Shown piece after piece: positions 32,772 to 58,299 of a stretch of DNA of 64,000 nt. The notes below the pieces were generated by a model. That model did not search any database and had not been told where the DNA came from. It saw only the letters and a program-made list of their open reading frames with translations. Origin of the DNA: Rhizomys pruinosus (lineage: Eukaryota; Chordata; Mammalia; Rodentia; Spalacidae). The translations under genes were made by a program, and so were the position numbers. The stretch is from contig VZQC01006365.1 in NCBI GenBank assembly GCA_009823505.1, positions 453,609-517,608 of the forward strand, written 5' to 3'. Every line of letters starts with the position of its first letter. Position 1 is the stretch's first letter.

Positions 32772-33770
32772 TACTTCTTTGTTTTTTAAGTAGTCTATAT
32801 ATTCTGGATGTTACTGCTCTGTCAGATGTATTAGGGGTGAAGGTTTCCTTCCACTCTGTAGGTTTTCTCCTCACTTCCTTGATTGTTTCTTTTTTTTTTT
32901 TTTTTTGGTCTTTTCAAGACAGGGTCTCCCTGTGGCCCCAGCTGTCCTGGAACTCGCTCTGTAAAGACCACGCTGGCCGTAGACCGGCTGGCCTTGAAAC
33001 TCACAAAAGATCTCTTGCTCTGCCTCACCAAGTGCTAGATTAAAGACATGCGCCAGCTTACAAAGCTGTTGATGTGATGAGTTCCCACTTCTCCTCGGTG
33101 ACTCTATTCCTTTCTAAACCAAACAAGCCAGTGCAGCGTCTCTGTTTGGTGTTTAGAAAGGCTTTTCCCTATGCCAGTGTCTTTAGGTTTGCTGCCACTT
33201 TGTCTTCTATGACCTTCAGGGTTTTGCATTTCAGGGTGAGATCTTTTGATCATTTGGAGTTGATGTTTGTACAGGTGAGAGTAGGGTTTAAATTGTTGTT
33301 TCTACCAAATGGTGATACAGTTTTACAAGCACCATTTGCTGAAATTCTTCTATCCTCCCTTGAGTGTTTTTTGCCTCTTGTCGAATATGAGGTGGCTGGA
33401 AATTGATATGAGCTCAAGTTTGGATATTAAATTTTGTTCATTGATCATGGGTCTGTTTTTGTTGCCAGTACCAGGCTGTCGTTTATGACTATAGGCCTGT
33501 AATATAGCTTGAAGTCTGGTAAGGTAATTCCCCCTATACTTTTTTCTCAGGGTTACTTTAGCCATTTGAGGTTTTTTTGTTTTTCCATATGAATTTAAGG
33601 ATTTATTTTTCCAAGTCGGTGAAAAAGCTCATGGGGATTTTGATTGGGATTGCATTGAATCTGTATATTATTTTTGGTTAGAATGGACATTTTTACTATA
33701 TAAATTTTTCCAATCCATGAACATGGGAGGTCTTTCTGTCTTTTAATGTTGTCTTCAATCTCCTTCTTTT
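32772..33770 (-). mobile_element. L1 ORF2 C-terminal part, antisense, carrying a B1
   Basis: The reverse complement gives L1 ORF2 downstream of the RT core (agtagtctatatattctggatgtta, ctatgaccttcagggttttgc, taggcctgtaatatagcttgaag are characteristic plus-strand phrases). A reverse B1 is inserted at about 32894-33060. The same L1 continues at 34566 after a nested insertion. Confidence 0.8.
32894..33060 (-). mobile_element. B1 SINE, antisense, inserted in L1
   Basis: T-rich start, gacagggtctccctgtggccc, then gaccacgctggccgtagaccggctggccttg (a small internal duplication), gatctcttgctctgcctc, and an end at acatgcgccagc. Confidence 0.85.
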
Positions 33771-34371
33771 TTTTTTTTTTTATTATTTTTTTAATTGATG
33801 CTTTGTGTATTCATACATCAGTTCCAATTCCAGTTCAGGCATATATCCTTCCCTTCCCCCCGCCCCACCCACCACCCATCCCATATGTCATGCATTCTGC
33901 GTAACTTTCTGCATCTTTCTGTTTTTTTTTTATTTGTTTTGTTTTCATTTTTTTAACAATAGATGATAATTTGTGAGTACAAGCATCCGTCATGTAAAAC
34001 CAATTTGCGGGCAGTTTGTGCCCAAACCAAAACGCTCATTGGGTCCCACCATCCAGGCAGGGGGGCTGTATGTTCAATCAGTTGATCAAATGTGTGTCCA
34101 TCTATATTGTATGTAGTTTCACCATTCACCCAATCGCAGCCCTTACATTCTACCACACCCCCTCTTCCGCACTATTGTTCCCTAGGCTTTAGAAAAGGGG
34201 CACAGGTGTGATGAGAAGCAAAAACAGTCTACTTCTCTGGAGCTGTTGTCTTGGTCTCTAGTCAATTCTGGCTGTTTTCTTCAGGGCTGCCAGCTTGTCC
34301 AGGCATAACATTTTCAATTCTACTAATGAAGCACATGTAATTAGATATATAGGTATTTAAACAGTATAATA
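33771..34371 (-). mobile_element. Young L1 3' UTR, antisense, nested in older L1
   Basis: A poly-T start (the A tail), tgatgctttgtg, a C-rich run, then the reverse complement of the 3' UTR seen at 22815-23330 (gtttgtgcccaaacc, cccaccatccagg, ggctgccagcttgtcc). It ends near 34371 where a sense B2 starts. The target duplication tcaatctccttctt lies left of the poly-T (about 33756-33769) and again right of the B2 tail, so L1 and B2 appear to share one insertion event. Bases from 34158 on are also present at 48657 onward. Confidence 0.8.
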
Positions 34372-34565
34372 TAAGCGCCGACTGCTCTGCAGAGGAACCG
34401 GGTTCATCCCCAGCACCCACATGGGCGACTAAGAAACACTTTAACTCCAGTTCCAGGGGAATCCGACGCCGTCTTCTGACCTCCGTGGCATTGCACAACA
34501 TGGGTGCACAAACCCATGAGCAGACAGTACATTCTGACACATAAAAAATAAAAAAATAAAAAAAA
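34372..34565 (+). mobile_element. B2 SINE, sense, 5'-truncated, head-to-head with L1 3' UTR (copy A)
   Basis: Begins inside the tRNA-like head (gcgccgactgctc), lacking the first ~28 bases. The body and A-rich tail are present and run into the second target duplication. It contains indels (tgctctgcagaggaacc) that are absent from the same element in copy B at 48873. Confidence 0.85.
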
Positions 34566-36808
34566 ATCAATCCCTTCTTTAGGGTTTTAAATTTTTGTTG
34601 TAGACGTCCTTTGTGATCTTTGGTAGGTTATTCCCAGTTTTATTTTTTTTTTTGAGGCTATTGTGATTGGGAAGATCTCCTTACATTCCTTCTCCAGTTT
34701 CTTATTGTTGGTGTAAAGGAAATCTACTGATTTTTCTAAGTTTATTTTGTATTCTGTCCAACTTTTTCTGAACTTTTAATCGGTTTCTAGGAGTTTTTGG
34801 TGGAGTTTTTAGCATCCTTAGGTAACTATCATATAATCTGCAAAAAAGGGATAGCTTGACTCCTCTTTTCCAATCGTAATACCTTTAATTTCCTTCTTTT
34901 CCTTATTGCCCTAGCAAGGATTTCAAACACTAATATGAAGAGAGAATGGCATAGGGCGGCCTTACTGGTTGCCCCCCTTTAAGGGGAATGGTTAATTTTT
35001 TCTCCATTTAGGAATGATGTCGGCAGTGAGTTGTTGTTATATGGGTTGATTACATGTTTCTCATCCATGATCACTCTAGGACTTTAAGCAGGAAGTGATC
35101 CTGGATTTTGTCAAAGGCTTTTTCTGTAACAATTGAGATGATCATGTGGTTTTTGGTCTTTCAGTCCACTTAATGTAATTTTATGAGTATTTATTGATTT
35201 ACATATGTTGAAACATCCCTGCAACATCTGGTAGGAATCCATTTGGTCCATGATGGATCTTTTTGATGTGGGGCTGTATGCGTTTTGCAAGTATTTTGCT
35301 GAGAATTTTTGCAATCTGTGTTCATTAATGAGATGGGTCTCTAGTTTTGCTTTCTTGTTTGTGTTTTTGCCTGGTTTTGGTATTAGAGTGATGTGTTTCA
35401 TAGAAGAATTTGGTAGATTTCCCTCTTTTTGTATCCTTCTGAACATTTTTAATAATAATGGTTGTAAGTCTTCTTTAAATGGTTTTATAGATTCTTCCAT
35501 GAAACCATCTGGGCCTGGGGTTTTTCACTTGGAGGTTTTGTTTGTTTTGTTTTTTTTACTACATCTTCAATTTCTCAAGTATTATGGTGAATGTTTAGGC
35601 TGTCTATCTCTTCTTGGTTAAACTTTGATGATTCATGATTTCAAATATTCATACATTTCTCTAGGTTTTCTAATTTAGTAGAGCATATGTTTTTGAAGTT
35701 GTCTCTTATGGTTGTCTAGGACTCTTTGTCGTTGTGATGTTCCCTCTTTCATCACATATGCTATTATATTTGAGTTGCTCTTCTTTATGGTGAACTGGGC
35801 AGAGTTCTGTCTATCTTTTTTATTTTTTGAAGACCAGCTTTTGGATTCATTTGGATTTTTTTTGTATTTTTTGTTTGTTTATTTCTATTTCATGATTGTG
35901 CTCTGATTTTTTGTTATTTTTTTCTTGTCTGTTGGATTTAGAGTTCATTTGTTGTTGTCTCTCAAGTGTTTTTAGCTGTAATGTTAGATCATTTGTTTGT
36001 TCTCTCTTTTTTAATGTGGGCACTTAGGGAGATAAATTTCCTTCTTAGGACTGATTTTAATGTATCCCACAGTTTTGGTGTGCTGTATTGTCTTTTTCAT
36101 TTAATTCCATGGATACTTTTATTTTGTTCTTTATTTTCTGTCCCCGACCCACGTCATTATTCAGGATTGTGATGTTAATTCTCTTCCTCTAGTTTTTTTT
36201 CTTGTTTTTCCCTTATTTCTGGTTTGTTCTTTGTATTCTTTGATATCTTTGAATATGTCTTCGATTGTTCTTCTAAGGTCAATATCTTGGTTCCTTCCAG
36301 GGAAATCTTGTGGGGATCTTCTATAGAGCTGATAGTGTCCGGTGGGGACTTATTATGATCTTTTCCCATATTGTTTTTTTTCTGCTGTGTCTTGCCATGT
36401 AGATTTGTGTTTTTATTGTTGTTTGTTTTGGTTCTGGTGCTAACTCAAATGTTAAGGGAGAACAGGTTAGTCACTCACTCGTGCTTCCTGCAGGTTTCTA
36501 CCTCAACGTGGGCTGTGCAGCCTAGAATCACTGGCACTGTCACTGCTGGATTGTCCCAACCAGAGCACCAGCAGCTTAAGTCTCCACTACAGTACTGAGC
36601 TGCGGTGAGGAGGGAGGTTTACTCCTTTGGCCCAAAGCCAGTACTTCACCTGTCCTGCCCTTGGAGTCTGCAGGCCTCCTGTCTGCTGTCTATCTCTGCA
36701 CACAATTCTTCTCTCTGCTCCCCTGGGTGTGGAACAGTTCTTCGCTCTGTTCCGTGCACTGGTACTTCACCCAGCCTGTCCACTGAGTCTGCAGGCCTCC
36801 TGTCTTAG
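34566..36808 (-). mobile_element. L1 LINE, antisense: ORF2 RT region, ORF1 N-terminus, 5' UTR (copy A)
   Basis: Continuation of the L1 at 32772-33770. On the minus strand the order is 5' UTR (36808 to ~36370, with one 122-bp monomer plus a partial one), ORF1 N-terminal 64 codons (36175-36369), then ORF2 endonuclease/RT regions down to 34566. Most of ORF1 and parts of ORF2 are deleted. Frames are further broken by copy-A indels. Copy B (49069-51464) reads better. Confidence 0.8.
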
Positions 36809-37416
36809 AGAACCTTTAACATTACTCATATAATTTATGAACGTCTGTGAAATTATGCATTGCTAATCACAATTACTGAAATGAACTGTATCTACATCTG
36901 TTGTTAATTTTATACAGCATAAACATGTTATTTGTAAATGAGGTAAAATCTGTCGCAAGGCAGACTATTATATAATTATGAGATGATATTTTGATTTTAA
37001 TACAGTACATTACAAATAAGATCTTACACGAAGTCAGAATTAGAGCAGAATTATAAAGGAAGGACATAATAAAATATAGGATATATTTATTAAGGGGTAC
37101 TTTAATTCTGTATGAGTTATTAGAAATTGACTTCAAATTAATACAGAGCATGTATGAAGTTATACAATAGGAAGAGAACAGACATAATAAATATTTGTAA
37201 ATCAGTTTTAAATAGCTCACCTGTATTTAGTAAGATAATTATCCTATAATTTATACACACACTTATTATGATGAATGCTTTATCATTTGCTGAATTATAA
37301 TTACATTTTAAATATGTTTAAAGTTTATTTATGCAAATATCAAAGGACGAAGTTACCAAACCTACAACAAAAGAATCAGAGTTATGTGTAACTCATGGTT
37401 TCTGTTTTGTTTGGTT
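36809..37416. other. No gene; same sequence as 51465-52070
   Basis: AT-rich single-copy-looking sequence repeated almost without change in copy B. A minus-strand 115-codon frame (36873-37220, identical to 51529-51876) has no domain and low complexity; I do not call it. Confidence 0.5.
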
Positions 37417-37548
37417 TGTTTTTTGAGACAAGGTCTCACTGGTCTGAAACTCTAGTGCTGACCAGGGTGTCCTTAGTTTTGCAGAGATTCACTTGACTCT
37501 GCCTCCTGAGTGTTGGGATTAATGCTGTGTACCACCATGCCTGGGCAT
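37417..37548 (-). mobile_element. B1 SINE, antisense, diverged (copy A)
   Basis: ttttgagacaaggtctcactgg ... tctgcctcctgagtgttgggatt ... accaccatgcctggg. Equivalent to 52075-52205 in copy B. Confidence 0.75.
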
Positions 37549-37734
37549 CTCTTCCTTTTAATTGGCAATGACTTTAGAAAAATCATTCAAAATAAAACAT
37601 TGTAAGATTTTTTTGTCCTATTATGTATAGAAGGTTTAGTATAGGTGGTTACTCTCAGCAAGAAATATATTAAGATTTAGCTCAAAGCAAGTCAGCTCTT
37701 GTAATTATTATTATTACTATTATTTTTTAATTAA

Positions 37735-38325
37735 TATTTATTATTATTTGTTATGTGTATGAATGTACTGTCTGCATGTCTGCATGTAGGTTGGTGCACC
37801 TGTGGTCATGCATGCGGCAGAGGTCAGAAGAGGGTGTTGATTTCCCCTGGAACTGGAGTTAAAGACAGTTTCTAGCCACCATGTGGGTGCTGGGAATTGA
37901 ACCCAGGTCCTCTCTTAAGAGCAGTCATGCTCTTAATGGCTGAGGTTATATCTCCAAGCCCGCTTCTTCTTCTTATTCTTCTTCTTCTTCTTCTTCTTCT
38001 TCTTCTTCGTTCTTCTTCTTCTCTTCCTCCGTTCTCCTCCTCCTCCTCCTCATCCTCATCCTCACTCCTCCTCCTCCCTCTCCTTCTTCTTCTTCTTCTT
38101 CTTCGTTACAGACTTTTATTATTTAAATGAAGTGTTATTGACATGCATGCTTGGTGCACATATGCACTGCATGCTCATGGCGGCCAGAAAGGGGGTTCAA
38201 ATCTCTCGGAACTGAGTACAGATTTTTACAGAATAACGAAGTGGGTTCTGGGAACTAAGCCTTGGTCCTTTGCAATAACAGCAAGTGATCCTTCCTTAAC
38301 CACTGGCACATCTCTCCAAGGCCTC
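37735..38325 (-). mobile_element. Two antisense B3-type SINEs flanking a (TTC)n/(TCC)n tract (copy A)
   Basis: First SINE ~37735-37958, pyrimidine repeat ~37960-38105, second SINE ~38106-38325. The pyrimidine tract is the decayed A-rich tail of the second SINE expanded into a microsatellite. Copy B (52395-52935) has the same layout with a cleaner repeat. Confidence 0.8.
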
Positions 38326-38678
38326 ATTAACTTCACTTAAATTTCTGTTTTATTACATCTAGACTACCATCAATGGCTGGAAAATGACTACCATCATTTG
38401 GCCTCCAATAAGCTTCATTTGTTTTGTGCAATCTTCATACATTTTAGGCTTTCAGTATTATCCTAGCAATTGTCTACGATCAAAATGTGACCAGATCTAG
38501 TTTTAGAAAGAATTCTTATCTCCTCTGAGTCACAAGAAGAGAAAAAAGTACTGATTTTCACCACAGGAGTATGATAAGTTATTACTGTTTTTTGTGTTGT
38601 AATCATAACTAGATGACATTTTTATTATATGGGTTCTTTGTATCTACAGTCAGGATATGTGATAAGATATCAGTTCCA
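38326..38678. other. No gene recognised (copy A)
   Basis: Unassigned; equals about 52936-53289 with scattered indels. Confidence 0.4.
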
Positions 38679-38995
38679 CTGTGGTCAGGCCCATGGGACA
38701 AGTATACCACTTGGGTTCACTTCAGTAGCCGCTGGGGGACGTACCGAGCAAGTGCAAAGTCCAGTACAAATCCAATCTTTATGAATGCAACATGTATTTA
38801 TATAGGCAGTGTGAATCATCTCCCAGTGGCCAATCCCAGATCTTACATCATCAATGTCAACCCCAACTTGTGGGTGTAAACAGAAAGGTCCTGTGACCCT
38901 CATGTGTTGACCCTGAGACAGGCTGGGCTTAAATGTTAGCTCACACACCCCACATGCCCAAACTCAGATCAGACACGCCCACAGTGGTATCACAA
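38679..38995 (-). mobile_element. LTR-like element, antisense (copy A)
   Basis: Diverged relative of the 5.05- and 16.9-kb elements (cagtgtga...cccagtggccaatcccagat, caacttgtgggtgtaaac). Equivalent to 53290-53605. Confidence 0.5.
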
Positions 38996-40181
38996 TTTTG
39001 TCTTTTGTTGTGTTAAAGTGGTTTTATTTTCTTTTTTTTTTTATCCTTCTCAAAAATAGATATCTGACTACTGTTGTAATTTCACTTATAGCTAATATCT
39101 TTTTATGTGTTTCTTTGTCAAGTATTAGCTCCTTTTTGGGGTTTGGGTTTTGTCGTTTTGCTTTAACAGAGTCTCCCTTGTACCAGCCCTCCTGGAACTC
39201 ACGATGTGGACCCAGGCGACCTCAAATCTCACAGAATCCACTACCTGCATGCCTCAGGGTGGGATAAAGGCTTTGTGCCACCACACAAGGTGTAAATATT
39301 GGCTTTCTTAATTTAGTGTGATTAAGCACTAAAATTTCCTGAGCAATATAAATGTTTGATTTTTATCTACATGTAATGTTTTAGTCTTGTGGGGGAAATG
39401 GGAAATTTGTTTATGTGATGTTGACTATTGCATAATGGACTAACAAAAGTGTTTTGGCAAGCTATCCCGGTACTCGTATCTCAATATGTATGAATTGGGC
39501 TTCAGTTCTTTGGGTTGTGAAAAAAAAAAAAGACTTGTCCGTGGCTAAGATGTGATGGTAAACAACTAAATACACATGTCAGTGTGTCTGTGCTTGTTTC
39601 TCATTATGTGGGTATGCCTATGAACATTATGCAGGTGGAAGAGTTATTTTTTCTTATTCTCTTCCTGAGACAGTTAACCCAGCATTAAAATGGTAAATGT
39701 AATGGCAGAGTGTGTTTGTTCAAAGATCACCATATTGAACTTTTAAACACTATCTCAAAGCCAGCTGAATGAACTACTTAGATTATGGGTTGAATATTTT
39801 TAATAATTAGGTCTTTGAATTAGATAATCCATTTGCATGTTTCCTCTTCCCGAAGATGTTACATTTTTATTTATCTTATAACATTGTGAAGTTTGATGGC
39901 CTCAAGGCAGCAAAGACATAGCATTCTATTCTAAGACAACGAAAAACAAACCAATAACTAAATAAAAGGTATTTGGTAATGTGCATCGGCCCCAGTGAAC
40001 ATTCACATTTCGTCCGTAATTGTGCGGTAACAAATGTTCTGCTTATTTTTTTCTTACATTTTGGTGTGGTGCCCATTTATTAGCATATTCCTATGTAATG
40101 AGCCATGTTCTGTGAATATATTGCAAAAATTCCTTTTCGTTGTAATTTGAATATTATTACTTTTATTTATTTATTATTCTA
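38996..40181. other. No gene; B1 (-) at ~39165-39290 (copy A)
   Basis: Apart from the reverse B1 (cagagtctcccttgtaccagccctcctgg ... tgtgccaccacacaagg), nothing is recognised. Equivalent to 53606-54764. Confidence 0.5.
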
Positions 40182-40342
40182 TTTTTTCAGGTCTTTTCGC
40201 GACACGGGTCTGTCTTGTCGCCCCAGCTGTCCTGGAACTCACTCTATAGACCATGCTGCGTTGACACTCACAAAAGATCTGGGGGCGTGCCTCTGCCTCC
40301 CAAGTGCTAAGATTAAGGTGGTTGGGCCACACACCCAGCCTT
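40182..40342 (-). mobile_element. B1 SINE, antisense (copy A)
   Basis: tcttttcgcgacacgggtctgtcttgtcgcc is a noisy version of copy B's gacagggtcttcttgtagcc. It ends ccacacacccagc. Confidence 0.8.
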
Positions 40343-40344
40343 GG

Positions 40345-40560
40345 TGTGGTTTTTAAGATTTAATTTTTATATTTTTTAATTCATGTGTGTGTATGTCTTT
40401 GTGTGTAATTGACATGGAGTAAGGTAACCATGAAGTCCAGACAAGGGTGCCAGATCCCTAAGCTAGTGGTTTTTACACATGGTTGTGTGGTGTCAAATGT
40501 AGGTTCTGGGGACCCAACTGGTTTAGCTGGAAGACAGCAAGCACTCTAAATATGTTTTGG
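40345..40560 (-). mobile_element. Old B3-type SINE, antisense (copy A)
   Basis: tcatgtgtgtgtatgtctttg ... acaagggtgccagatccc ... aggttctggggacccaac. Equivalent to 54917-55125 and, inverted, to 48480-48655. Confidence 0.55.
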
Positions 40561-40734
40561 CAACATCTTTACATACCCCTGATTTTTGTCTTGATAACAC
40601 TTCTTAGGGTTTTATCATTTTTAATAATTTATGAAAATCAGATCTGTGTGGTTTTTTTCTGTACAAATGTAAAGATATCTCTGAGGACATTACAGTATTC
40701 AATTGCCTTTTGCCTGTCTTACAATGAAAATAAC

Positions 40735-41372
<638 letters not shown>

Positions 41373-44300
41373 GGCTAACCTGCTCTGTTTTGTTTTTTTT
41401 TTTTTTTTTTGTGTTTGTTTTTTGTTTTTCTGAGAATTTTCAATTTCTTCTGTAATAATTTCAAATTTCCTCTTATTTCTGCCTTTCTTTGATGCTCACT
41501 TATTTTATAAGGGCATCTTTTCTGTTATAATCCTTTCAGATTAGCGGTTGATAGTTCGAGAAGCATCTGGAACTTTATGTCTTTATTAGGGAGAGACGAC
41601 AGAGGAAGGTTGACAATGTTGAGGATGCAGGACCAACCAGGAGTACCAGACAATGAGTGTGAGAAGAGGGCTAGCTAAAGGGAGTAGACAGGAAGCCCAA
41701 ATCCAAACATCTGCCAATTCTAGGAATCTGCTAGTTCTTGTCTCCTATTTCTAATTCATTCTTTTAGACATATAATTGTTAGTGTCACAAAAAGCAGATA
41801 ACTACCATGAACAGGCCCCTTATACATAGGTAGAATATTGGCAGTTATAACCCTTTCTGATTAGCTGCAGTTGTTTGGTGCTGTATTAGCTAGGCCTACA
41901 GAAAATAATAAATTTATCAGTATTAATCTTAAGTAAAAAGGGTAGCATTTTGGCCATAATTTCCTGGTGTCCCATGTTGAATTCCTCAGGCTTCTTCCAT
42001 ATCTTGATCAGTCAGCCTCTAGGTTTGTGGCTAGGAAAGGCTTGTAGAATGAATCCTTAGGTGCTGGCTGTGTGTGGTCTTCAAGCTTTAGTTATGTGTA
42101 AATTGATCAGCTTCCCATGTGGTCAAAGAAGACTAATGGTCATGAAAGGTGATATTGAGATGATTCCCAGGGTCCCCGGTTGCTGTCCACCAGACTGGTT
42201 CCTCATGTGGGGTAGCAGTCCTGATCTGGGAATGATGGATCCAGGTGTCTATACCTATAAATTTTAAGGCTGCAAGTGTGGTTTAAAGCACAAGGTAAGG
42301 TCCCTTCAAGGCCAGTTAAGTGGTGCTTTATGCTAATATTTTATTAATATCATGTCTTCTGACTTGTGGGAATATACGAGGTTACTTATGTGAAAGGGAA
42401 ATCTCTCTAGCGACCACTGCTGTAGCTGGACTATGGTATAACAATAAGATGCAGCTGAGTATGGATATGTGCATTTTGGATTTCCTTCAGTCCCTGAGGA
42501 TTCTTAAGAATGGAGGAGGTTTACTAATCAGAATTTCATAAGATGACAGCTTAATTTCTGCTTGGGGTGAGCATCTGACCTAAGGAGAGTCATAGGCAGT
42601 GCTAAAGTCCAAGGCAATAAGGTCTCTTGACAAAATTTACTCAGGGCTCATGCATTCCATTTTCCTTAATGTCCAAAGGCAAATAGCCACATGCAAACAT
42701 CTATTAATTTTTTTTTTTTTTTTTTGGTCTTTTCGAGACAGGGTCACTCTGCTGTAGCCCCAAGCTGTCCTTGGAAACCTCACTCTGCTTTAGACCAGGC
42801 TGGCCTTGAACTCACCAAAGATCTGCCTGCCTCTTCCTCCCAAGGCTAGGATTAACAGGCATGCAACCACCATGCCCACGGCTTAATTCTATTTAATTTT
42901 AAGGAGTTTTCCTCGTCCTTGCATGACCTCAACCATAAAGTAGTCCCATTACCTGACCCAATTGAAGTAGCCATTTAATACCTGGGCAAGATTTCAGTCA
43001 GAAAAGCCCTGTTTACCCCCTTAGTCTTTACAGTCCTGGTAGGATATGCCTCTACCCAGCCAGAGTAAGTTGTACGCAATGACTAGCTGCTACTTATATC
43101 CCTGCTAGGTGGCAGTTTAGTAAATCTCCATCCACATCTTCAAATGAAATGTGTCCAGTGCTCTGTACTCATGGAAGCAGGAAGACACCTTGCTTGTTAC
43201 TGTTTTGGTCACAAGTTTGGCATCAATGCCACTAAGTATGAAGAATGTGGACATGTAGTAATACTAGTTTACCAAGGCCTCTAGTGCCATTATTTTTGGT
43301 AAAATATGAGTACTCTTTATGGAGTTGGTGAACCGAGGATAAATGCTATGAACTGAGATTAAAGATGTTCCTGTCAGGAGGAGCCACGCATCCATCTGAA
43401 ATCTTGATTCCTTTCCTCTCGCTTGCAGCCTCTTGGTTCAGTGTAGATGTGTTGGGTAGGATTAAAGTCATACTATTTTTACTGGAGGAATCTATGATGT
43501 TTAATCTTCTGTTTGCATTCCCTGCCTTTCCTGGTCTGCTCATTGGTTCCCATACAAGCATGGCTGCTGTGTCCCCAAACCTGCTTCTAGGACTTAAAAC
43601 ATTGGGTTTGATTATTTTCATTATACTTTTTCTCCTTCAGGAAGTACCCCCCTCTCAAAGAGGGGCCCATGGAGGTGCACATGGTTGGTAGCAAATGTGC
43701 GTCTTAGGTCTGTGTAAACGTTTTCCCTTTGTCCTTTGCTTTCGTCCAGTGCCCTGATTAAGGCTAAGGGCTCTGCTCATTGAGCTGACCATTAGGGAGG
43801 GTGCCTATTATTTTAGTCTGCCTTAACCATCCTTATCCTGCTCAGATGTTTTCCTGTAATAGGAAGCTTCTGTCCCCATTCAAATGGATATTTACCTCCC
43901 ACTGTGATTCTATAGAGGGGCTTGACTATTACAGGCTAGTTATGTATTCTAAAGTAGCACAAACTGGCTGCCCCTAGAAACTCTATGATCTGTCTGTGTG
44001 ATGGTCCACACTGCCTTTTGTAAGGGATACCCTGTTTCCAGGCCTCTTGAGCAGATCTAGGAATATTTCTGTTCCCCTTGCCAAGGTCACCTTGCTAGAC
44101 AACTAGAGTGGTTTCATATACTGTAAAACGCACATTACATTTCTGCTCTTGGGGAAGTGCTGGGCAGGTTTTTTTGATTTTGTTTTGTTTGTTGTCCTAG
44201 GGGGTTCCCCAAATATTCTGGGAGAGTTTTTTTAAAGCCCTTTTAGCTGTAGGGTCTTCCCATTCAAAGGCAAATATTGGCTGAATTAGAGGTGTCAGGT

Positions 44301-44560
44301 GAATGCTCTAAAAACATTCTTCAAGTCAAAATAAGTGAACCATTGGGCTTCAGGTAGGAGGCCCAGCAGGGGGTATGGGTTGGGTATATTTGGATAGATT
44401 ATGGCTTTAGCCTGGATCATGGCTTACTGGCCCTGGACAGATTTCTAGTTGTTGGTACTTTCTCTACAGGGAGCAAGGAGAGAATTCAAAGAAGACTGAC
44501 ATTTTCAAAGCTAACCCCAATGTAAGGCTTCAAGAGGTAAGGGGGTATAGACTGTTATCA
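41373..44560 (-). pseudogene. ERV1 pol and env-tail remains (copy A)
   Basis: Antisense proviral sequence equivalent to 55726-58871. It covers the env TM tail (~41475-41690), the integrase C-terminal domain to zinc-binding region (~42060-43260), the RNase H region (~43500-43700) and the N-terminal half of RT up to 44560, with a reverse B1 at about 42706-42885. Extra frameshifts relative to copy B reflect local sequence error as well as decay. See the copy B entries for motifs. Confidence 0.65.
42706..42885 (-). mobile_element. B1 SINE, antisense, inserted in ERV pol (copy A)
   Basis: T run, ggtcttttcgagacagggtc ... gaccaggctggccttgaactc ... aaccaccatgcccacgg. Inserted between integrase segments, same site as 57047-57218 and 46325-46505. 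Confidence 0.85.
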
Positions 44561-44642
44561 TCTCGATCTCTCAAGCAAATCCACACGAGAAGGGGGAAAG
44601 AAACAAAGAAAAAATGTGGGGTGAGGAGTAAAAGAGAGAGAT
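44561..44642. other. Adapter-like sequence at the palindrome apex (degenerate PacBio SMRTbell hairpin)
   Basis: The 82 bases between the two palindrome arms match neither arm nor copy B. They contain atctctcaa at 44566-44574, followed by caa/cac-rich then G-rich sequence, and end gaggagtaaaagagagagat at 44623-44642. The PacBio SMRTbell hairpin adapter (about 45 nt) begins ATCTCTCTCAACAACAAC and ends GGAGGAAAAGAGAGAGAT. Both ends and the internal order of C/A-rich then G/A-rich blocks agree, with noise and extra length compatible with a poorly resolved or double adapter pass. Confidence 0.82.
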
Positions 44643-47600
44643 ATAACAGTCCCTAATACCCCTACCTCTTGAAATCCACATTGGGTTGCTTGAAATTGTC
44701 AGTCCCTTCTTTGAATGCTCTCTTGCTCCCTGTAGAGAAAGTACCAACAACTAGAAATCTGTCCAGGGCCAGTAAGCCATGATCCAGGCTAAAGCCATAA
44801 TCTATCCAAATATACCCAACCCATACCCCCTGCTGGGCCTCCTACCTGAAGCCCAATGGTTCACTTATTTTGACTTGAAGAATGTTTTTAGAGCATTCAC
44901 CTGACACCTCTAATTCAGCCAATATTTGCCTTTGAATGGGAAGACCCTACAGCTAAAAGGGCTTTAAAAAAAACTCTCCCAGAATATTTGGGGAACCCCC
45001 AGGCAAAACAAAACAAAAACAAAAAAACCTGCCACACTTCCCAAGAGCAGAAATGTAATGTGCGTTCTTACAGTATATGAACCATCTGTGTCTAGCAAGG
45101 GTGACCTTGGAAGGGGAACAAGAACTATTCCTAGATCTGCTCAAGAGGCCTGGAAACAGGGTATCCCTTACAAAAGGCAGTGTGGACCATCACACAGACA
45201 GATCATAGAGTTTCTAGGGGCAGCCAGTTTGTGCTACTTTAGAATACATAACTAGCCTGTAATAGTCAAGCCCCTCTATAGAATCACAGTGGGAGGTAAA
45301 TATCCATTTGAATGGGGACAGAAGCTTCCTATTACAGGAAAACATCTGAAGCAGGACGTAGGGATGTTAAGGCAGACTAAAATAATGGCACCCTCCCTAG
45401 GGGCAGCTCAATGAGCAGCAAGAGCCCTTAGCCTTAAAAAAATCAGAATCAGGGCAACTGAAAGCAAGGGGCACTGGACGAAAGCAAAGGACAAAGGGAA
45501 AACGTTTACACAGACCTAAGACGCACATTTGCTACCAACCATGTGCACCTCCATGGGCCCCTCTTTGAGAGGGGGGTACTTCCTGAAGGAGAAAAAGTAG
45601 ATGAAAATATCAAAACAATGTTTTATAAAGCCTAGAAGCAGTTTGGGACACAGCAGCCATTGCTGTATGGGAACCAATGAGCAGACCAGGAAGCAAGGCA
45701 AGCAACAAAGATATAAACATCATAGATTCCTCCCAGTAAAATAGTAATGACTTTAATCCTACCCAAACATCTACACTGAACCCAAGAGGCTGAAGCGAGA
45801 GAAAGGAATCAAGATTTCAGATGGATGGTGGCTCCTCCCTGACAGACACATCTTTATCTCAGATCATATCATTTATCCTCTGGTTCACCAACTCCATAAA
45901 GATACTCATATTTTACCAAAAATAATGGCACTAGAGGCCTTGGTAAACTAGTATTACTACATGTCCACATTCTTCATACTTAGTGGCATTGATGCCAAAC
46001 TTGTGACCAAAACAGTAACAAGCAAGGTGTCTTCCTGCTTCCATGAGTACAGAGCACTGGACACATTTCATTTGAAGATGTGGATGGAGATTTACTAAAC
46101 TGCCACCTAGCAGGGATATAAGTAGCAGCTAGTCATTGCGTACAACTTACTCTGGCTGGGTAGAGGCATATCCTACCAGGACTGTAAAGACTAAGGGGGT
46201 AAACAGGGCTTTTCTGACTGAAATCTTGCCCAGGTATTAAATGGCTACTTCAATTGGGTCAGGTAATGGGACTACTTTATGGTTGAGGTCATGCAAGGAC
46301 GAGGAAAACTCCTTTAAAATTTAATAGAAAAATTACCGGGGCATGGTGATGCACATGCCTTAATCCTAGCCTTGGGAGGCAGAGGGCAGGCAGATCTTTG
46401 TGAGATTTTTAAAGGCCAGCCTGGTATACAGAGTGAGTTTCCCAATGGACAGCTGGGGCTAACAGAGAGACCCGTCTCGAAAAGAACCAAAAAAAAAAAA
46501 AAAAATTAATAGAGTTTTTGTCATGTGGCTATTTGCCTTTGGACATTAAGGAAAATGGAATGCATGAGCCCTGAGTAAATTTTGTCAAGAGACCTTATTG
46601 CCTTGGACTTTAGCACTGCCTATGACTCTCCTTAGGTCAGATGCTCACCCCAAGCAGAAATTAAGCTGTCATCTTATGAAATTCTGATTAGTAAACCTCC
46701 TCCATTCTTAAGAATCCTCAGGGACTGAAGGAAATCCAAAATGGCAACATGCCAGACTCAGCTGACATCCTTTTTGTTGTTTGTTTTTATTGTTATAATA
46801 CAATAGTCCAGCGACAGCAGTGGTCGCTAGAGAGATTTCCCTTTCACATAAGTAACCTCGTATATTCCCACAAGTCAGAAGACATGATATTAATAAAATA
46901 TTAGCATAAAGCACCACTTAACTGGCCTTGAAGGGACCTTACCTTGTGCTTTAAACCACACTTGCAGCCTTAAAATTTATAGGTATAGACACCTGGATCC
47001 ATCATTCCCAGATCAGGACTGCTACCCCACATGAGGAACCAGTCTGGTGGACAGCAACCGGGGACCCTGGGAATCATCTCAATATCACCTTTCATGACCA
47101 TTAGTCTTCTTTGACCACATGGGAAGCTGATCAATTTACACATAACTAAAGCTTGAAGACCACACACAGCCAGCACCTAAGGATTCATTCTACAAGCCTT
47201 TCCTAGCCACAAACCTAGAGGCTGACTGATCAAGATATGGAAGAAGCCTGAGGAATTCAACATGGGACACCAGGAAATTATGGCCAAAATGCTACCCTTT
47301 TTACTTAAGATTAATACTGATAAATTTATTATTTTCTGTAGGCCTAGCTAATACAGCACCAAACAACTGCAGCTAATCAGAAAGGGTTATAACTGCCAAT
47401 ATTCTACCTATGTATAAGGGGCCTGTTCATGGTAGTTATCTGCTTTTTGTGACACTAACAATTATATGTCTAAAAGAATGAATTAGAAATAGGAGACAAG
47501 AACTAGCAGATTCCTAGAATTGGCAGATGTTTGGATTTGGGCTTCCTGTCTACTCCCTTTAGCTAGCCCTCTTCTCACACTCATTCTGGTACTCCTGGTT

Positions 47601-47867
47601 GGTCCCTGCATCCTCAACATGTCAACTTCCTCTGTCGTCTCTCTCCTAAAAGACATAAAGTTCCAGATGCTTCTCCAGAACTATCAACCAGCTAATCTGA
47701 AAGATATAACAGAAAATGATGCCCCTTAGATAAAATAAGTGAGCATCAAAGAAAGGCAAAAATAAGAGGAAATTTTGAAATTTATAAGAAGAAAATGAAA
47801 ATATTCCAGAAAAACAAAAAAACAAACAAAAAAAAAAAAAAAAAAAAAAAACAGAGACAAGGAGCCT
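44643..47867 (+). pseudogene. ERV1 pol and env-tail remains in inverted copy A'
   Basis: Sense-strand version of the provirus: RT from 44643, RNase H region near 45515-45700, integrase from about 45830 to 47120 with a sense B1 at 46325-46505, env TM tail at 47520-47729 (69 codons, with the same PCILN motif as at 55847-56056). The segment at about 46745-46795 differs from the other two copies (an extra ttgttgtttgtttttattg). Not an independent locus if the palindrome is artefactual. Confidence 0.65.
46325..46505 (+). mobile_element. B1 SINE, sense (copy A')
   Basis: Inverted image of the B1 at 57047-57218. It carries several differences (gggcatggtgatgcacatg, gagatttttaaaggcc) that look like read error. 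Confidence 0.85.
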
Positions 47868-48302
47868 TGGAGAGACCAGCCATTTTTTTGATTTAAGAAG
47901 CAGGTTTCCAGTTTGCCCCAAATATAAGTCTATTCTGTTTGGGCTGAGAAACAAGTCAAGGTTTTTAACTTTTGTTTGTCTCTGTTTTTTTAGAGACCCC
48001 ACACACACTTTTATGATACATAGGTTAGATACCCCTGTGCATGCCTTAAGCCATTTAGGCTCCCATGCATAGTACACTGTCACATAGACTGAAATGTCAC
48101 TTGAACCTGATACTCAGCAATGTCAGAGCAGGGTCTGAAATGATGCTAAATTGCCTGTATATATTAGAAAATGTCTGTAGTCTACTGCATAGGCTTTGGA
48201 GATTATGCTCCTAGGCTTGCTGCTGGAAGGATCAGGAATAAAAGTTGTGACTTTCCTCTTTGGCCCTGGGTGTCTGATTTGGAAGCAGCAGTTATCATAA
48301 CA
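47868..48302 (+). repeat. ERV1 LTR in inverted copy A'
   Basis: Inverse of 55299-55725. The polyadenylation-type ggaataaaag is at about 48236-48245. No poly-G is present here, which is the key comparison with copy A. Confidence 0.6.
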
Positions 48303-48655
48303 GTTATTTTCATTGTAAGACAGGCAAAAGGCAATTGAATACTGTAATGTCCTCAGAGATATCTTTACATTTGTACAGAAAAAAACCACACAGATCTGAT
48401 TTTCATAAATTATTAAAAATGATAAAACCCTAAGAAGTGTTATCAAGAAAAAAAATCAGGGGTTTGTAAAGATGGGTTTGCAACTAATGTTAGAGTGCTT
48501 GCTGTTCTTCCAGCTAAACCAAGTTGGGTCCCCAGAACCTACATTTGACACCACACAACCATGTGTAACACTAGCTTTAGGGATCTGGCACCCTTGTCTG
48601 ACTTTCATAGGTACCTACACTCACATGGCATTCACACACAAAGACATACACACAG

Positions 48656-48656
48656 N
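48656..48656. other. Single N: apparent contig join
   Basis: Left of the N is the end of inverted copy A'. Right of it, copy B starts abruptly in the middle of an L1 3' UTR with ccccctcttcc, exactly where homology to 34158 begins. A one-base N at such a double breakpoint fits an end-to-end contig join with no measured gap. Confidence 0.75.
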
Positions 48657-48871
48657 CCCCCTCTTCCACAGATTGTTCCCTAGGCTTAGAAAAGGGGCAC
48701 AGGTGGATGAGAAGCAAAACAGTCTACTTTCTCTGGAGCTGTTGTCTTGGTCTCTAGTCAATTCTGGCTGTTTTCTTTCATGGGCTGCCAGCTTGTCCAG
48801 GCATAACCTTTCAATTCTACTAATGAAGCACATGTAATTAGATATATAGGTATTTAAACAGTATAATATAT
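48657..48871 (-). mobile_element. Young L1 3' UTR, antisense, partial (copy B)
   Basis: Same element as 33771-34371, but the distal end and A tail are cut off at the N. Contains ttccctaggcttagaaaaggggc and gctgccagcttgtccagg. Confidence 0.8.
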
Positions 48872-49068
48872 AGCGCCGACTGCTCTTGCAGAGGACCCGG
48901 GTTCAATCCCCAGCACCCACATGGCGACTAAGAACCATCTTTAACTCCAGTTCCAGGGGAATCCGACGCCCTCTTCTGACCTCCGTGGCATTGCACAACA
49001 TGGGTGCACAAACCCATGAGCAGACAGTACATTCATACACATAAAAAATAAAAAAAATAAAAAAAGAA
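48872..49068 (+). mobile_element. B2 SINE, sense, 5'-truncated (copy B)
   Basis: Starts at gcgccgactgctcttgcagagg, missing the first ~28 head bases. B box (gggttcaatccccagc), body and A-rich tail are intact, followed by tcaatctccttctt. Confidence 0.9.
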
Positions 49069-51464
49069 TCAATCTCCTTCTTTAGGGTTTTAAAATTTTT
49101 GTTGTAGACGTCTTTGGTGACTTTGGTTAGGTTTATTCCCAGGTACTTTGCCTTTTTTTGAGGCTATTGTGATTGGGAAGATCTCCTTACATTCCTTCTC
49201 CAGTTTCTTATTGTTGGTGTAAAGGAAATCTACTGATTTTTCTAAGTTTATTTTGTATTCTGCCACTTTTTCTGAAACTTTTAATCGTTTTCAGGAGTTT
49301 TTTGGTGGAGTTTGTAGCATCCCTTAGGTAAACTATCATATCATCTGCAAAAAGGGATAGCTTGACTTCCTCTTTTCCAATCGGTAATCCTTTAATTTCC
49401 CTGTCTTTCCTTATTGCCCTAGCAAGGATTTCAAACACTATATTGAAGAGGAATGGCAATATGGGGCAGCCTTTCTGGTTCCCCCCTTTAAGGGGAATGC
49501 TTCTAATTTTTCTCCATTTAGGATGATGTCGGCAGTGAGTTTGTTGTATATGGGTTTGATTACATGTTTCTTCCAGTCCATTTCACTCTAGGACTTTAAG
49601 CATGAAGTGATCCTGGATTTTGTCAAAGGCTTTTTCTGTAACAATTGAGATGATCATGTGGTTTTTGTCTTTCAGTCCACTTATGTATTTTATGATTATT
49701 TATTGATTTACATATGTTGAAACATCCCTGCATCTCTGGTAGGAATCCAATTTGGTCATGATGGATCTTTTTGATGTGGGTCTGTATGCGTTTTGCAAGT
49801 ATTTTGCTGAGAATTTTTGCATCTGTGTTCATTAATGAGATGGGTCTCTAGTTTTCTTTCTTGTTTGTGTTTTTGCCTGGTTTTGGTATTAGAGTGATGT
49901 TGGCTTCATAGAAGGAATTTGGTAGATTTCCCTCTGTATTCTTATGAACACTTTGAGTAATAATGGTTGTAAGTCTTCTTTAAATGTTTTATAGAATTCT
50001 TCCATGAAACCATCTGGGCCTGGGTGGTTTTTCACTTGGGAGGTTTTTTGTTTGTTTGTTTTTTTACTACATCTTCAATTTCCTAAGTATTATGGTAATG
50101 TTTAAGCTGTCTATCTCTTCTTGGTTAAACTTTGATGAATTTAGGATTTCAAATATTCATACATTTCTCTTAGGTTTTCTAATTTAGTAGAGCATATGTT
50201 TTTGAAGTTGTCTCTTATGGTTGTCTGGACCTTTCTTTGTCTGTTGTGATGTTCCCTCTTTCATCACATATGCTATTGATTTGCAGTTGCTCTTTCTTAT
50301 GGTGAACTGGGCTAGAGTTCTGTCTATTTTGTTTATATTTTTGAAGAACCAGCTTTTGGATTCATTGATTTTTTTTGTATTTTTTGTTTGTTTATTTCTA
50401 TTTCATTGATTTCTGCTCTGATTTTTGTTATTTTTTTCTTGTCTGTTGGATTTAGAGTTCATTTGTTGTTGTCTCTCAAGTGTTTTTAGCTGTAATGTTA
50501 GATCATTTGTTTGTTCTCTCTTTTTTTAATGTGGGCACTTAGGGAGATAAATTTCCTTCTTAGGACTGATTTTAATGTATTCCACAGGTTTTGTTGTGCT
50601 GTATTGTCTTTTTCATTTAATTCCATGGATACTTTTATTTTGTTCTTTATTTCTTCCCCGACCCACTCATTATTCAGGATTGTGATGTTAATTCTCTTCC
50701 TCTAGTTCTTTTCAGAGTCTGTCATTCTTTCCCCTTAGTTCTCTGCTTTGTTCTTTGTATTCTTTGATATCTTTGAATATGTCTTCGATTGTTCTTCTAA
50801 GGTCAATATCTTGGTTTCCTTCCAGGGAAATCTTGTGGGGATCTTCTATAGAGCTGATAGTGTCCGGTGGGGACTTATTATGATCTTTTCCCATATTGTT
50901 GTTTTTCTGCTGTGTCTTTGCCATGTAGATTTGTGTTTTTATTGTTGTTTGTTTGGATTCTGGTGCTAATCTCAAATGTTAATAGGGAGAACAGGTTAGT
51001 CACTCACTCTGCTTCCTGCAGGTTTCTACCTCAACGTGGGCTGTGCAGCCTAGAATCACTGGCACTATGTCTGCTGGATTGTCCCAACCAGAGCACCAGC
51101 AGCTTATAGTCTCCACTACAGTAGCTTGAGCTGCGTGGGAGGAGGGAGGTTTACTCCTTTGGCCCAAGAGCCAGTACTTCACCTGTCCTGCCCTTGGAGT
51201 CTGCAGGCCTCCTGTCTGCCTGTCTATCTCTGCACACAATTCTTCTCTCTGCTCCCCTGGGTGTGGAACAGTTCTTCGCTCTGTTCCGTGCACTGGTACT
51301 TCACCCAGCCTGTCCACTGAGTCTGCAGGCCTCCTGTCTGCCTGTCTATCTCTGCACACAATTCTTCTCTCTGCTCCCCTGGGTGTGGAACAGTTCTTCG
51401 CTCTGTTCCGTGCACTGGTACTTCACCCAGCCTGTCCACTGAGTCTGCAGGCCTCCTGTCTTAG
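49069..51464 (-). mobile_element. L1 LINE, antisense: RT region, ORF1 N-terminus and monomeric 5' UTR (copy B)
   Basis: On the minus strand: 5' UTR from 51464 with two full 122-bp monomers (51201-51322 and 51323-51444) plus a partial one, then an 87-codon ORF1 N-terminal frame (50712-50975), then ORF2 pieces (endonuclease/linker ~50690-50000, RT ~49980-49208). The RT frame 49208-49459 contains FADDM, the RT catalytic motif with its paired aspartates. Most of ORF1 and the ORF1/ORF2 junction are missing. The L1 continues at its 3' side in 33770-32772 if copies A and B are one locus. Confidence 0.85.
51201..51455 (-). repeat. L1 5' UTR monomers, 122-bp period
   Basis: The phrase ctgcaggcctcctgtct recurs at 51201, 51323 and 51445. 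The two full units are nearly identical, as expected of L1 promoter monomers. Copy A (36668-36806) has one unit fewer. Confidence 0.85.
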
Positions 51465-52074
51465 AGAACCTTTAACATTACTCATATAATTTATGAACGT
51501 CTGTGAAATTATGCATTGCTAATCACAATTACTGAAATGAACTGTATCTACATCTGTTGTTAATTTTATACAGCATAAACATGTTATTTGTAAATGAGGT
51601 AAAATCTGTCGCAAGGCAGACTATTATATAATTATGAGATGATATTTTGATTTTAATACAGTACATTACAAATAAGATCTTACACGAAGTCAGAATTAGA
51701 GCAGAATTATAAAGGAAGGACATAATAAAATATAGGATATATTTATTAAGGGGTACTTTAATTCTGTATGAGTTATTAGAAATTGACTTCAAATTAATAC
51801 AGAGCATGTATGAAGTTATACAATAGGAAGAGAACAGACATAATAAATATTTGTAAATCAGTTTTAAATAGCTCACCTGTATTTAGTAAGATAATTATCC
51901 TATAATTTATACACACACTTATTATGATGAATGCTTTATCATTTGCTGAATTATAATTACATTTTAAATATATTTTAAAGTTTATTTATCAAATATCAAA
52001 GGACGAAAGTTACCAAACTACAACAAAATAATCAGAGTTATTGTAACTCATGGTTTCTGTTTTGTTTGGTTTTG
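51465..52074. other. No gene recognised (copy B)
   Basis: AT-rich sequence nearly identical to 36809-37416. Confidence 0.5.
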
Positions 52075-52205
52075 TTTTTTGAGACAAGGTCTCACTGGTC
52101 TGAAACTAGCTATGCTGACCAGGGTGTCCTTAGTTTTGCAGAGATTCACTTGACTCTGCCTCCTGAGTGTTGGGATTAATGCTGTGTACCACCATGCCTG
52201 GGCAT
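52075..52205 (-). mobile_element. B1 SINE, antisense, diverged (copy B)
   Basis: tttttgagacaaggtctcactgg ... gcctcctgagtgttgggatt ... accaccatgcctggg. Confidence 0.78.
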
Positions 52206-52394
52206 CTCTTCCTTTTTAATTGGCAATGACTTTAGAAAAATCATTCAAAATAAAACATTGTAAGATTTTTTTTGTCCTATATGTATAGAAGGTTTAGTAT
52301 AGGTGGTTACTCTCAGCAAGAAATATATTAAGATTTAGCTCAAAGCAAGTCAGCTCTTGTATTATTATTATTACTATTATTTTTTTAATTAATT

Positions 52395-52935
52395 ATTTAT
52401 TATTATTTGTTTATGTGTATGAATGTACTGTCTGCATGTCTGCATGTAGGTTGGTGCACCTGTGTCATGCAATGCTGCAGAGGTCAGAAGAGGGTGTTGG
52501 ATTCCCCTGGAACTGGAGTTAAAGACAGTTCTTAGCCACCATGTAGGTGCTGGGAATTGAACCCAGGTCCTCTGTAAGAGCAGTCAGTGCTCTTAATGGC
52601 TGAGGTATATCTCCAGCCCTTCTTCTTCTTCTTCTTCTTCTTCTTCTTCTTCTTCTTCTTCTTCTTCTTCTTCTTCTCCTCCTCCTCCTCCTCCTCCTCC
52701 TTCTTCTTCTTCTTCTTCTTCTTCAGGACTTTTATTATTATGAGTGTTTTGACTGCATGCTTGTGCACATATGCATGCAGTGCTCATGGAGGCCAGAAAG
52801 GGGGTCAAATCTCCTGGAACTGGAGTTACAGATGTTTACGAATAACCATGTGGGTTCTGGGAACTAAGCCTTGGTCCTTTGCAATAACAGCAAGTGTCCT
52901 TCCTTAACCACTGGCACATCTCTCCAAGGCCTCAT
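52395..52935 (-). mobile_element. Two antisense B3-type SINEs flanking a (TTC)n/(TCC)n microsatellite (copy B)
   Basis: SINE 52395-52616 (tgtactgtctgcatg ... tatatctccagccc), pyrimidine repeat 52617-52725 (ttc, then tcc, then ttc units), SINE 52727-52932 (gcatgcttgtgcacatatgc ... cacatctctcc). Charged poly-E/poly-K frames here are simple-repeat translations. Confidence 0.85.
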
Positions 52936-53289
52936 TAACTTCACTTAAATTTCTGTTTTATTACATCTAGACTACCATCAATGGCTGGAAAATGACTACC
53001 ATCATTTGGCCTCCAAATAAGTTTCAATTTGTTTTGTGCAATCTTTATACATTTTAGTCTTTCAGTATTATCCTAGCAATTGTCTACATACATAAAATGT
53101 TGACCAGATCTAGTTTTAGAAAGAATTCTTATCTCCTCTGATCACAAGAGAGAAAAAAGTACTGATATTTCACCACAGGTATGATAAGTATTACTGTTTT
53201 CTGTGTTGTAAAATCATAACTAGATGACATTTTTATTATATGGGTTCTTTGTATCTACAGTCAGGATATGTGATAAGATATCAGTTCCA
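52936..53289. other. No gene recognised (copy B)
   Basis: Unassigned sequence, equal to copy A 38326-38678. Confidence 0.4.
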
Positions 53290-53605
53290 CTGTGGTACAG
53301 GCCATGGAGAAAGTATACCCACTTGGGTTCACTTCAGTAGCAGCTGGGGGACGTACCAGAAAGTGCAATTCCGAGTACAAATCCAATTTATTGAATGCAA
53401 CATGTCATTTATATAGGCAGTGTGATATTATCTCCCAGTGGCCAATCCCAGATCTTTGTATCATCATGTCAACCCAACTTGTGGGTGTAAACAGAAAGGT
53501 CCTGTGACCCTCACTTGTGACCCTGGAACAGGCTGGCTTAAATGTTAGCTCACACACGCCCACATGCCCAAACTCAGATCAGACACGCCCACAGTGGTAT
53601 CACAA
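53290..53605 (-). mobile_element. LTR-like element, antisense (copy B)
   Basis: tgtggtacaggccatgg to cacgcccaca. It shares the order of motifs with 5048-5335 and 16870-17145 but is clearly diverged, with a longer U3-like part containing acaggctggcttaaatg. Confidence 0.5.
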
Positions 53606-54764
53606 TTTTGTCTTTTGTTGTGTTAAAGTGGTTTTATTTCTCAGTCTTGGCCAAACAATAGATTATGCTTGACTACTGTTTAGTAGATTCACAGGTTTAT
53701 ATACTCTTAATAATCTTTTTATGTTTTCTTTGTCAAGTATTAGCTCCTTTTTGGTTTGGGTTTTTTGTCGTTTTGCTTTAACAGAGTCTCCCTTGTACCA
53801 GCCCTCCTGGAACTCACTATGTGGACCAGGCTGACCTCAATCTCACAGAAGTCCATCTGCCTCTGCCTCCCAGGGGCTGTGATTAAAGGCTTGTGCCACC
53901 ACACAAGGTGTAAATATTGGCTTTCTTAATTTAGTGTGATTAAGCACTAAAATTTCCTGAGCAATATAAATGTTTGATTTTTATCTACATGTAATGTTTT
54001 AGTCTTGTGGGGGAAAATGGGAAATTTGTTTTATTGATTTGACTATGCAGAATGGATAACAAAAGTGTTTTGGCCAAGCTATCCCTGTACTCGTATCCTC
54101 AATATGTATGAATTGTGCTTCAGTTCTTTGTTGGAAGACTTGTCCCTGGCTAAGATGTGATGGGTAACAACTAAATACACATGTCAGTGTGTCTGTGCTT
54201 GTTTCTCATTATGTGGGTATGCCTATGAACATTATGCAGGTGGAAGAGTTATTTTTTCTTATTCTCTTCCTGAGACAGTTAACCCAGCATTAAAATGGTA
54301 AATGTAATGGCAGAGTGTGTTTGTTCAAAGATCACCATATTGAACTTTTAAACACTATCTCAAAGCCAGCTGAATGAACTACTTAGATTATGGGTTGAAT
54401 ATTTTTAATAATTAGGTCTTTGAATTAGATAATCCATTTGCATGTTTCCTCTTCCCGAAGATGTTACATTTTTATTTATCTTATAACATTGTGAGTTGAT
54501 GGCCTCATGCAGCAAGACATAGCATTCTATTCTAAGAAAAAGAAAAAAAAAACTAAATACAAAGGTATTTGTAATGATGCATAGGCCAAGTGAAATTATT
54601 TTCGTAATTTGTTAAAAATTGTCCTTGATTTTTTTCTTAATTTTGTGTGGTGCCCAATTTATTAGCATATTTCCTATGTAAGAGCCATGTTCTGTATAAT
54701 ATATTGCAAAAAATTCTTTTATGTTGATAATATTGATTATTTTATTTATTTATTTATTTATTTT
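53606..54764. other. No gene; B1 (-) at ~53765-53910 (copy B)
   Basis: The B1 reads gtctcccttgtaccagccctcctgg ... gtccatctgcctctgcc ... gtgccaccacacaagg. The rest is unassigned. Confidence 0.5.
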
Positions 54765-54912
54765 TTTAGTCTTTTCGAGACAGGGTCTTCTTGTAGCCCC
54801 AGCTGTCCTGGAACTCACTCTATAGACCATGCGGCTTTGAACTCACAAAGATCTGGCTGCCTCTGCCTCCCAAGTGCTAAGATTAAAGGTGTATGCCACC
54901 ACACCCAGCTCT
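54765..54912 (-). mobile_element. B1 SINE, antisense (copy B)
   Basis: agtcttttcgagacagggtcttcttgtagcccc ... gatctggctgcctctgcc ... gccaccacacccagc. Confidence 0.88.
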
Positions 54913-54916
54913 TGGT

Positions 54917-55125
54917 GTTTTTTAAGATTTATTTTTATATTTTTTTAATTCATGTGTGTGTATGTCTTTGTGTGTGAATGACATGTGAGTAGGTACCTAT
55001 GAAGTCCAGACAAGGGTGCCAGATCCCTAAAGCTAGTGTTACACATGGTTGTGTGGTGTCAAATGTAGGTTCTGGGGACCCAACTTGGTTTAGCTGGAAG
55101 AACAGCAAGCACTCTAAATAGTTGC
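54917..55125 (-). mobile_element. Old B3-type SINE, antisense (copy B)
   Basis: gattcatgtgtgtgtatgtc-like start, gaagtccagacaagggtgcc, ggttctggggacccaac. Old and diverged; family assignment moderate. Confidence 0.55.
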
Positions 55126-55298
55126 AACATCTTTACAACCCCTGATTTTTGTCTTGATAACACTTCTTAGGGTTTTATCATTTTTAATAATTTATGAAAA
55201 TCAGATCTGTGTGGTTTTTTTCTGTACAAATGTAAAGATATCTCTGAGGACATTACAGTATTCAATTGCCTTTTGCCTGTCTTACAATGAAAATAACT

Positions 55299-55725
55299 GT
55301 TATGATAACTGCTGCTTCCAAATCAGACACCCAGGGCCAAAGAGGAAAGTCACAACTTTTATTCCTGATCCTTCCAGCAGCAAGCCTAGGAGCATAATCT
55401 CCAAAGCCTATGCAGTAGACTACAGACATTTTCTAATATATACAGGCAATTTAGCATCATTTCAGACCCTGCTCTGACATTGCTGAGTATCAGGTTCAAG
55501 TGACATTTCAGTCTATGTGACAGTGTACTATGCATGGGAGCCTAAATGGCTTAAGGCATGCACAGGGGTATCTAACCTATGTATCATAAAAGTGTGTGTG
55601 GGGTCTCTTAAAAAAACAGAGACAAAAGTTAAACCTGCACTTGTTTTCTCAAGCAAACAATAAGACTTATTATCTTGGGGAAACTGGAACCTGCTTTCTT
55701 AAATCAAAAAATGGCTGGTCTCTCA
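55299..55725 (-). repeat. ERV1 3' LTR
   Basis: On the minus strand it starts TGAGAGACCAGCC after an A-rich and purine stretch, carries AATAAA at 55358-55363 and ends near GTTATCATAACA. The start is supported by alignment to 61858-62220. The exact 3' end is less certain. Confidence 0.6.
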
Positions 55726-55846
55726 GGCTACCTGCTCTGTTTTTTTTTTTTTTTTGTTTTTTTTTTTTCTGGAATTTTCATTTTTTTTTTTTATAATTTC
55801 AAATTTCCTCTTATTTCTGCCTTTCTTTGATGCTCACTTATTTTAT

Positions 55847-56056
55847 CTAAGGGGCATCATTTTCTGTTATATCTTTCAGATTAGCTGGTTGATAGTTCTG
55901 GAGAAGCATCTGGAACTTTATGTCTTTTAGGAGAGAGACGACAGAGGAAGTTGACATGTTGAGGATGCAGGGACCAACCAGGAGTACCAGAATGAGTGTG
56001 AGAAGAGGGCTAGCTAAAGGGAGTAGACAGGAAGCCCAAATCCAAACATCTGCCAA
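55847..56056 (-). pseudogene. env TM C-terminal remnant
   Basis: A 69-codon frame with a hydrophobic membrane-spanning stretch, a GPCILN motif and a short cytoplasmic tail, placed just before the 3' LTR. The N-terminal env regions expected between integrase and this point are missing (only ~350 bases remain). Identical translation occurs in inverted copy A' (47520-47729). Confidence 0.75.
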
Positions 56057-56399
56057 TTCTAGGAATCTGCTAGTTCTTGTCTCCTATTTCTAATTCATTC
56101 TTTTAGACATATAATTGTTAGTGTCACAAAAAGCAGATAACTACCATGAACAGGCCCCTTATACATAGGTAGAATATTGGCAGTTATAACCCTTTCTGAT
56201 TAGCTGCAGTTGTTTGGTGCTGTATTAGCTAGGCCTACAGAAAATAATAAATTTATCAGTATTAATCTTAAGTAAAAAGGGTAGCATTTTGGCCATAATT
56301 TCCTGGTGTCCCATGTTGAATTCCTCAGGCTTCTTCCATATCTTGATCAGTCAGCCTCTAGGTTTGTGGCTAGGAAAGGCTTGTAGAATGAATCCTTAG

Positions 56400-57780: not shown

Positions 57781-57789
57781 GTTTGGGTA

Positions 57790-58060: not shown

Positions 58061-58299
58061 TTGCTTTCGTCCAGTGCCCTGATTAAGGCTAAGGGCTCTG
58101 CTCATTGAGCTGACCATTAGGGAGGGTGCCTATTATTTTAGTCTGCCTTACCATCCCTTATCCTGTCAGATGTTTTCCTGTAATAGGAAGCTTCTGTCCC
58201 CATTCAAATGGATATTTACCTCCCACTGTGATTCTATAGAGGGGCTTGACTATTACAGGCTAGTTATGTATTCTAAAGTAGCACAAACTGGCTGCCCCT

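Follow-up and report, generated by a model that had tools for sequence, protein, structure and literature searches.

The 64,000-nt stretch of DNA analysed here (the window) contains a large palindrome with a short spacer at its apex, and the sequence that leads into the palindrome is repeated downstream in direct orientation. This arrangement raises the question of whether it belongs to the genome or was produced during sequencing and assembly. Judging by the sequence, it is almost certainly an artefact of sequencing and assembly, namely an unsplit PacBio read pasted into a gap, and not a biological feature. The features on which the analysis is based are listed in Table 1, where the three related stretches are called passes A and B and copy C.

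Table 1. Coordinates of the palindrome, its spacer and the adjoining features in the window.
Feature	Position	Strand	Basis
Pass A, presumed forward pass of the unsplit read; indel-rich duplicate of copy C	34158–44558	+	Comparison with copy C
Stretch with G runs (11, 63, 99 and 30) confined to pass A, interpreted as false sequence	40915–41147	+	Run listing, comparison with B and C
Garbled PacBio SMRTbell hairpin adapter (most likely)	44560–44642	+	Anchored alignment, BLASTN, exact 13-letter end
Pass B, presumed return pass of the same read, ~4 kb, to the point matching 40386	44643–48654	-	Reverse-complement match to A and C
Single N joining the presumably read-derived fill to copy C	48656	.	One other N in the window (18449)
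Copy C, likely the true locus copy, running into the right flank	48657–58868	+	Error comparison, outside L1

Geometry of the Palindrome and Its Spacer

A self-BLAST search of the window revealed an opposite-strand match at 41196–48049 (91.9%) and the pairing of 40386–40911 with 48125–48654 (93.5%). The inverted arms occupy approximately 40386–44558 and 44643–48654. The extent of the palindrome, ~40386–48654 or 8.3 kb, is in agreement with the length of about 8 kb given in the preliminary description of this DNA, which was made from the sequence alone. The final paired base of the left arm is 44558 (...ACTGTTAT; also written ...GACTGTTAT), and the right arm restarts at 44643 (ATAACAGT...; also written ATAACAGTC...). 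The preliminary description had placed a spacer between the arms at 44561–44642. A spacer is indeed present, and its limits were corrected to 44559–44642 (84 nt). The letters quoted from it were found as well, and taaaagagagagat forms its right end, with the final letter exactly at position 44642.

In addition, a direct copy of 34158–44561 was found at 48657–58871 in three BLAST pieces. Copy C passes the position equivalent to the apex into other sequence and is collinear with the right flank. It reads GACTGTTATCATGCAGGCCT uninterrupted at 58860–58879, so that the spacer is missing from the other copy, as had been claimed. When a second source of the spacer was sought within the window, only matches of 10–20 nt were obtained besides the spacer itself (best E 0.058), and an Rfam search gave nothing at gathering scores. 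It was also found that the inverted arms that meet at the apex are two copies of one sequence, as would be the case in a read with a missed adapter.

Similarity of the Spacer to the SMRTbell Adapter

The spacer was compared with the 45-nt SMRTbell adapter, the sequence of which is printed in two papers. With both ends fixed, the alignment of 44560–44642 contained 44 of the 45 adapter letters in order, with 1 missing and 39 inserted, and its score was 51.5. This score was reached by none of 20,000 shuffled spacers (best 50.0, mean 23.3, s.d. 6.8) and by none of 20,000 shuffled adapters (best 48.5, mean 20.0, s.d. 6.8). These counts are not fully blind, as the length of 83 nt and the choice of 44560 over 44559 as the start were settled post hoc, after the arms and the first letters of the adapter had been seen, and the dinucleotide shuffles retain the first and last letter. 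When the adapter was placed at 127,834 positions on the two strands of the window, the score was reached at a single one, the apex, while the top placement elsewhere scored 42.5. The final 13 letters of the adapter are present exactly at the end of the spacer and occur once in the window. The top BLASTN match of the adapter in the window was located at 44623–44642 (19/20 letters, E 4.5e-4).

The SMRTbell sequence expected at the apex in the case of a missed adapter was found in the anchored test and was less distinct in a free local alignment, the score of which was reached in 17 of 5,000 shuffles of the spacer and in 9 of 5,000 of the adapter. In a free local scan with a 10-base step, the apex was still the best position in the window (51.5; runner-up 48.0). 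The middle of the adapter is barely recognisable, and the 39 inserted letters in 83 weigh against the adapter reading, this being far noisier than usual PacBio sequence. The small distance between the top shuffle scores and that of the spacer also weighs against it. Nevertheless, the match anchored at both arm ends, together with the shuffle and placement controls, allows us to consider the spacer (44560–44642) to be, most likely, the PacBio hairpin adapter in garbled form, the identity that had been suggested from its ends and internal order. Such heavy garbling may be the reason why trimming missed it.

Comparison of the Three Copies

Pairwise alignment of A with C gave 9,752 matches, 93 substitutions, and 241 insertion and 199 deletion events (440 indel events). 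For B and C (54955–58868), 3,854 matches, 24 substitutions, and 49 insertion and 28 deletion events were counted. Within the stretch shared by A and B, the number of events relative to C was 158 in A and 101 in B; 8 of them were exactly common, and 24 of the 158 events in A had an event of the same type in B within 2 bases. The comparison of A with B gave 218 events, where full additivity would correspond to 259. The errors of A and B are independent largely, but not wholly. Indel-dominated and largely independent errors in two passes are characteristic of a missed-adapter artefact; divergence consisting mainly of substitutions and spread over the copies, as expected for a true inverted duplication, was not found.

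A column vote was performed on 4,286 columns of a MAFFT alignment of A, B and C. The columns were identical in 3,556 cases, A was odd in 465 (a count that takes in the inserted letters of the G-run stretch), B in 182 and C in 60, and all three differed in 23. The MAFFT alignment recast many indels as mismatches (738 mismatches in all for A versus C), and the error spectrum was taken from the pairwise alignments. When an L1 copy located outside A, B and C (at 25.5 kb) served as the reference, A had 44 indels and 94 mismatches and C had 16 indels and 99 mismatches. Passes A and B are likely two noisy readings around the truer copy C, and C is considered the likely true locus because A and B differ from it by indel-rich, mostly unshared errors. 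Many of the columns in which A and B agree against C are situated in poly-T or ambiguously aligned stretches, and a few of these columns may reflect heterozygous sites or errors in C. A tandem unit of ~122 bases occurs twice in A (36626–36807) and three times in C (51159–51463); either a collapse or an expansion has affected one of the two.

The longest event-free runs were 1,047 bases in A and 946 bases in B, and the event counts of A and B per 250 bases were correlated (Spearman 0.57, p 0.02, 16 bins). Over most of their length, A and B contain fewer errors than a raw read would, which counts against the proposed artefact. Since the errors are patchy, with long clean runs, and the counts in A and B are correlated, it can be assumed that other data were used to correct the read in part, or to polish the assembly, and that these data failed at the same places. 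The adapter would have no support in the correcting data and may have remained raw for that reason.

Sequence at the Junction and Other Signs of False Sequence

The BLAST pairing of B ends at 48654, two bases short of the N at 48656, and the first base of C (48657) follows this N immediately. Thus, a gap character marks the junction with a duplicated contig end, as in a mis-filled gap. The G-run stretch of A comprises 233 bases; B and C have no such runs and, opposite them, contain identical ordinary sequence (101 nt compared).

The L1 sequence to the left of 34158 is indel-rich in comparison with another L1 of the window, with 33 indel events in 33750–34157 and 7 in 34158–34300; C had 2 indel events in 163 bases aligned with the comparison copy. 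The read-derived sequence may begin before 33750, where the comparison L1 copy could itself differ and C provides no control.

Origin of the Duplicated Sequence

From the three passes, the adapter match, the N and the error pattern, all of which are observed in the window, we infer the read itself, the gap-filling step and the partial read correction. A left contig and a right contig, the latter beginning at 48657, would have been separated by a gap. A PacBio polymerase read would have crossed this gap, followed the sequence of the right contig for 10.4 kb on one strand (pass A), rounded the SMRTbell hairpin adapter and returned for ~4 kb on the other strand (pass B). The adapter would have been read too poorly for recognition, leaving the read without splitting into subreads. 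The whole overhang of the read would then have been inserted after the left contig, with one N left in front of the right contig; the sequence of this contig itself (copy C) repeats pass A. An unsplit read had already been proposed in the preliminary description, and this reading is supported by the adapter anchored at both ends, the three passes of one sequence, the N at the point where the return stops, the indel-rich noise and the collinearity of C with the flank. Since a missed-adapter read with passes A and B fits as gap fill and C is the likely true locus, the spurious sequence probably amounts to ~14.5 kb (34158–48656), exceeding the palindrome itself. Left unmarked, this stretch would be taken for a segmental duplication that includes a palindrome.

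Three near-identical copies are present in the assembly, and these would also be expected from a genuine inverted-plus-direct duplication in the genome that has a short, unrelated A/G-rich spacer; large inverted duplications are known to form in genomes. Also in favour of such a duplication is that C stands alone in 60 of the 4,286 columns, where A and B agree. However, the divergence consists mostly of single-base indels concentrated in A and B, the spacer resembles a synthetic adapter, the second junction carries an N and A contains the 233-base stretch with long G runs. This explanation was rejected on these grounds and is considered very improbable. It is just as hard to credit a true recent inverted and direct triplication in which a badly sequenced, adapter-like A/G-rich spacer merely happens to lie at the apex.

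A palindromic chimera that arose by whole-genome amplification or template switching and was pasted into the assembly, with no missed adapter involved, would have the same fold-back geometry, which is described for long reads in the Pacasus paper (PMC6218980). With such a chimera, one would hardly expect a SMRTbell match that is anchored on both sides of the apex; the chimera was rejected for this reason, and its probability is estimated as very small.

The unsplit read is consistent with artefacts reported earlier. In the PBJelly paper (PMC3504050), the text on unremoved hairpin adapters gives ~1% of PacBio reads as consisting of two overlapping subreads of opposite strands, and the Pacasus paper (PMC6218980) names missed SMRTbell adapters as one cause of palindromic reads. 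Like these reads, the palindrome contains passes of opposite strands joined at a hairpin adapter. Unlike the reads as presented there, the read apparently entered the assembly here, the adapter is much garbled and a large part of the sequence around it looks corrected. The overfilled gaps described in PMC3504050 are also similar, with excess sequence in a gap and no join to the far contig, whereas here a single N remains. According to the same description, PBJelly itself splits missed-adapter reads, and it is therefore not an obvious culprit.

The artefact belongs to a known kind and is of little biological interest. A search for inverted copies that are rich in indels, bounded by an N and garbled in the adapter at their apex is suggested for cases of this kind that exact adapter screens may miss.

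Other Features of the Window

The only other N of the window is a single base at 18449, beside T- and A-rich runs. It is possibly another gap-fill join; no fold-back at this position was found among the self-BLAST matches listed. The window also contains sequence that we take to be B1/B2-like SINE sequence, which points to a rodent. A Pfam scan of 6 out of at least 31 reading frames gave no match for three of them, RVT_1 for two and Transposase_22 (L1) for one.
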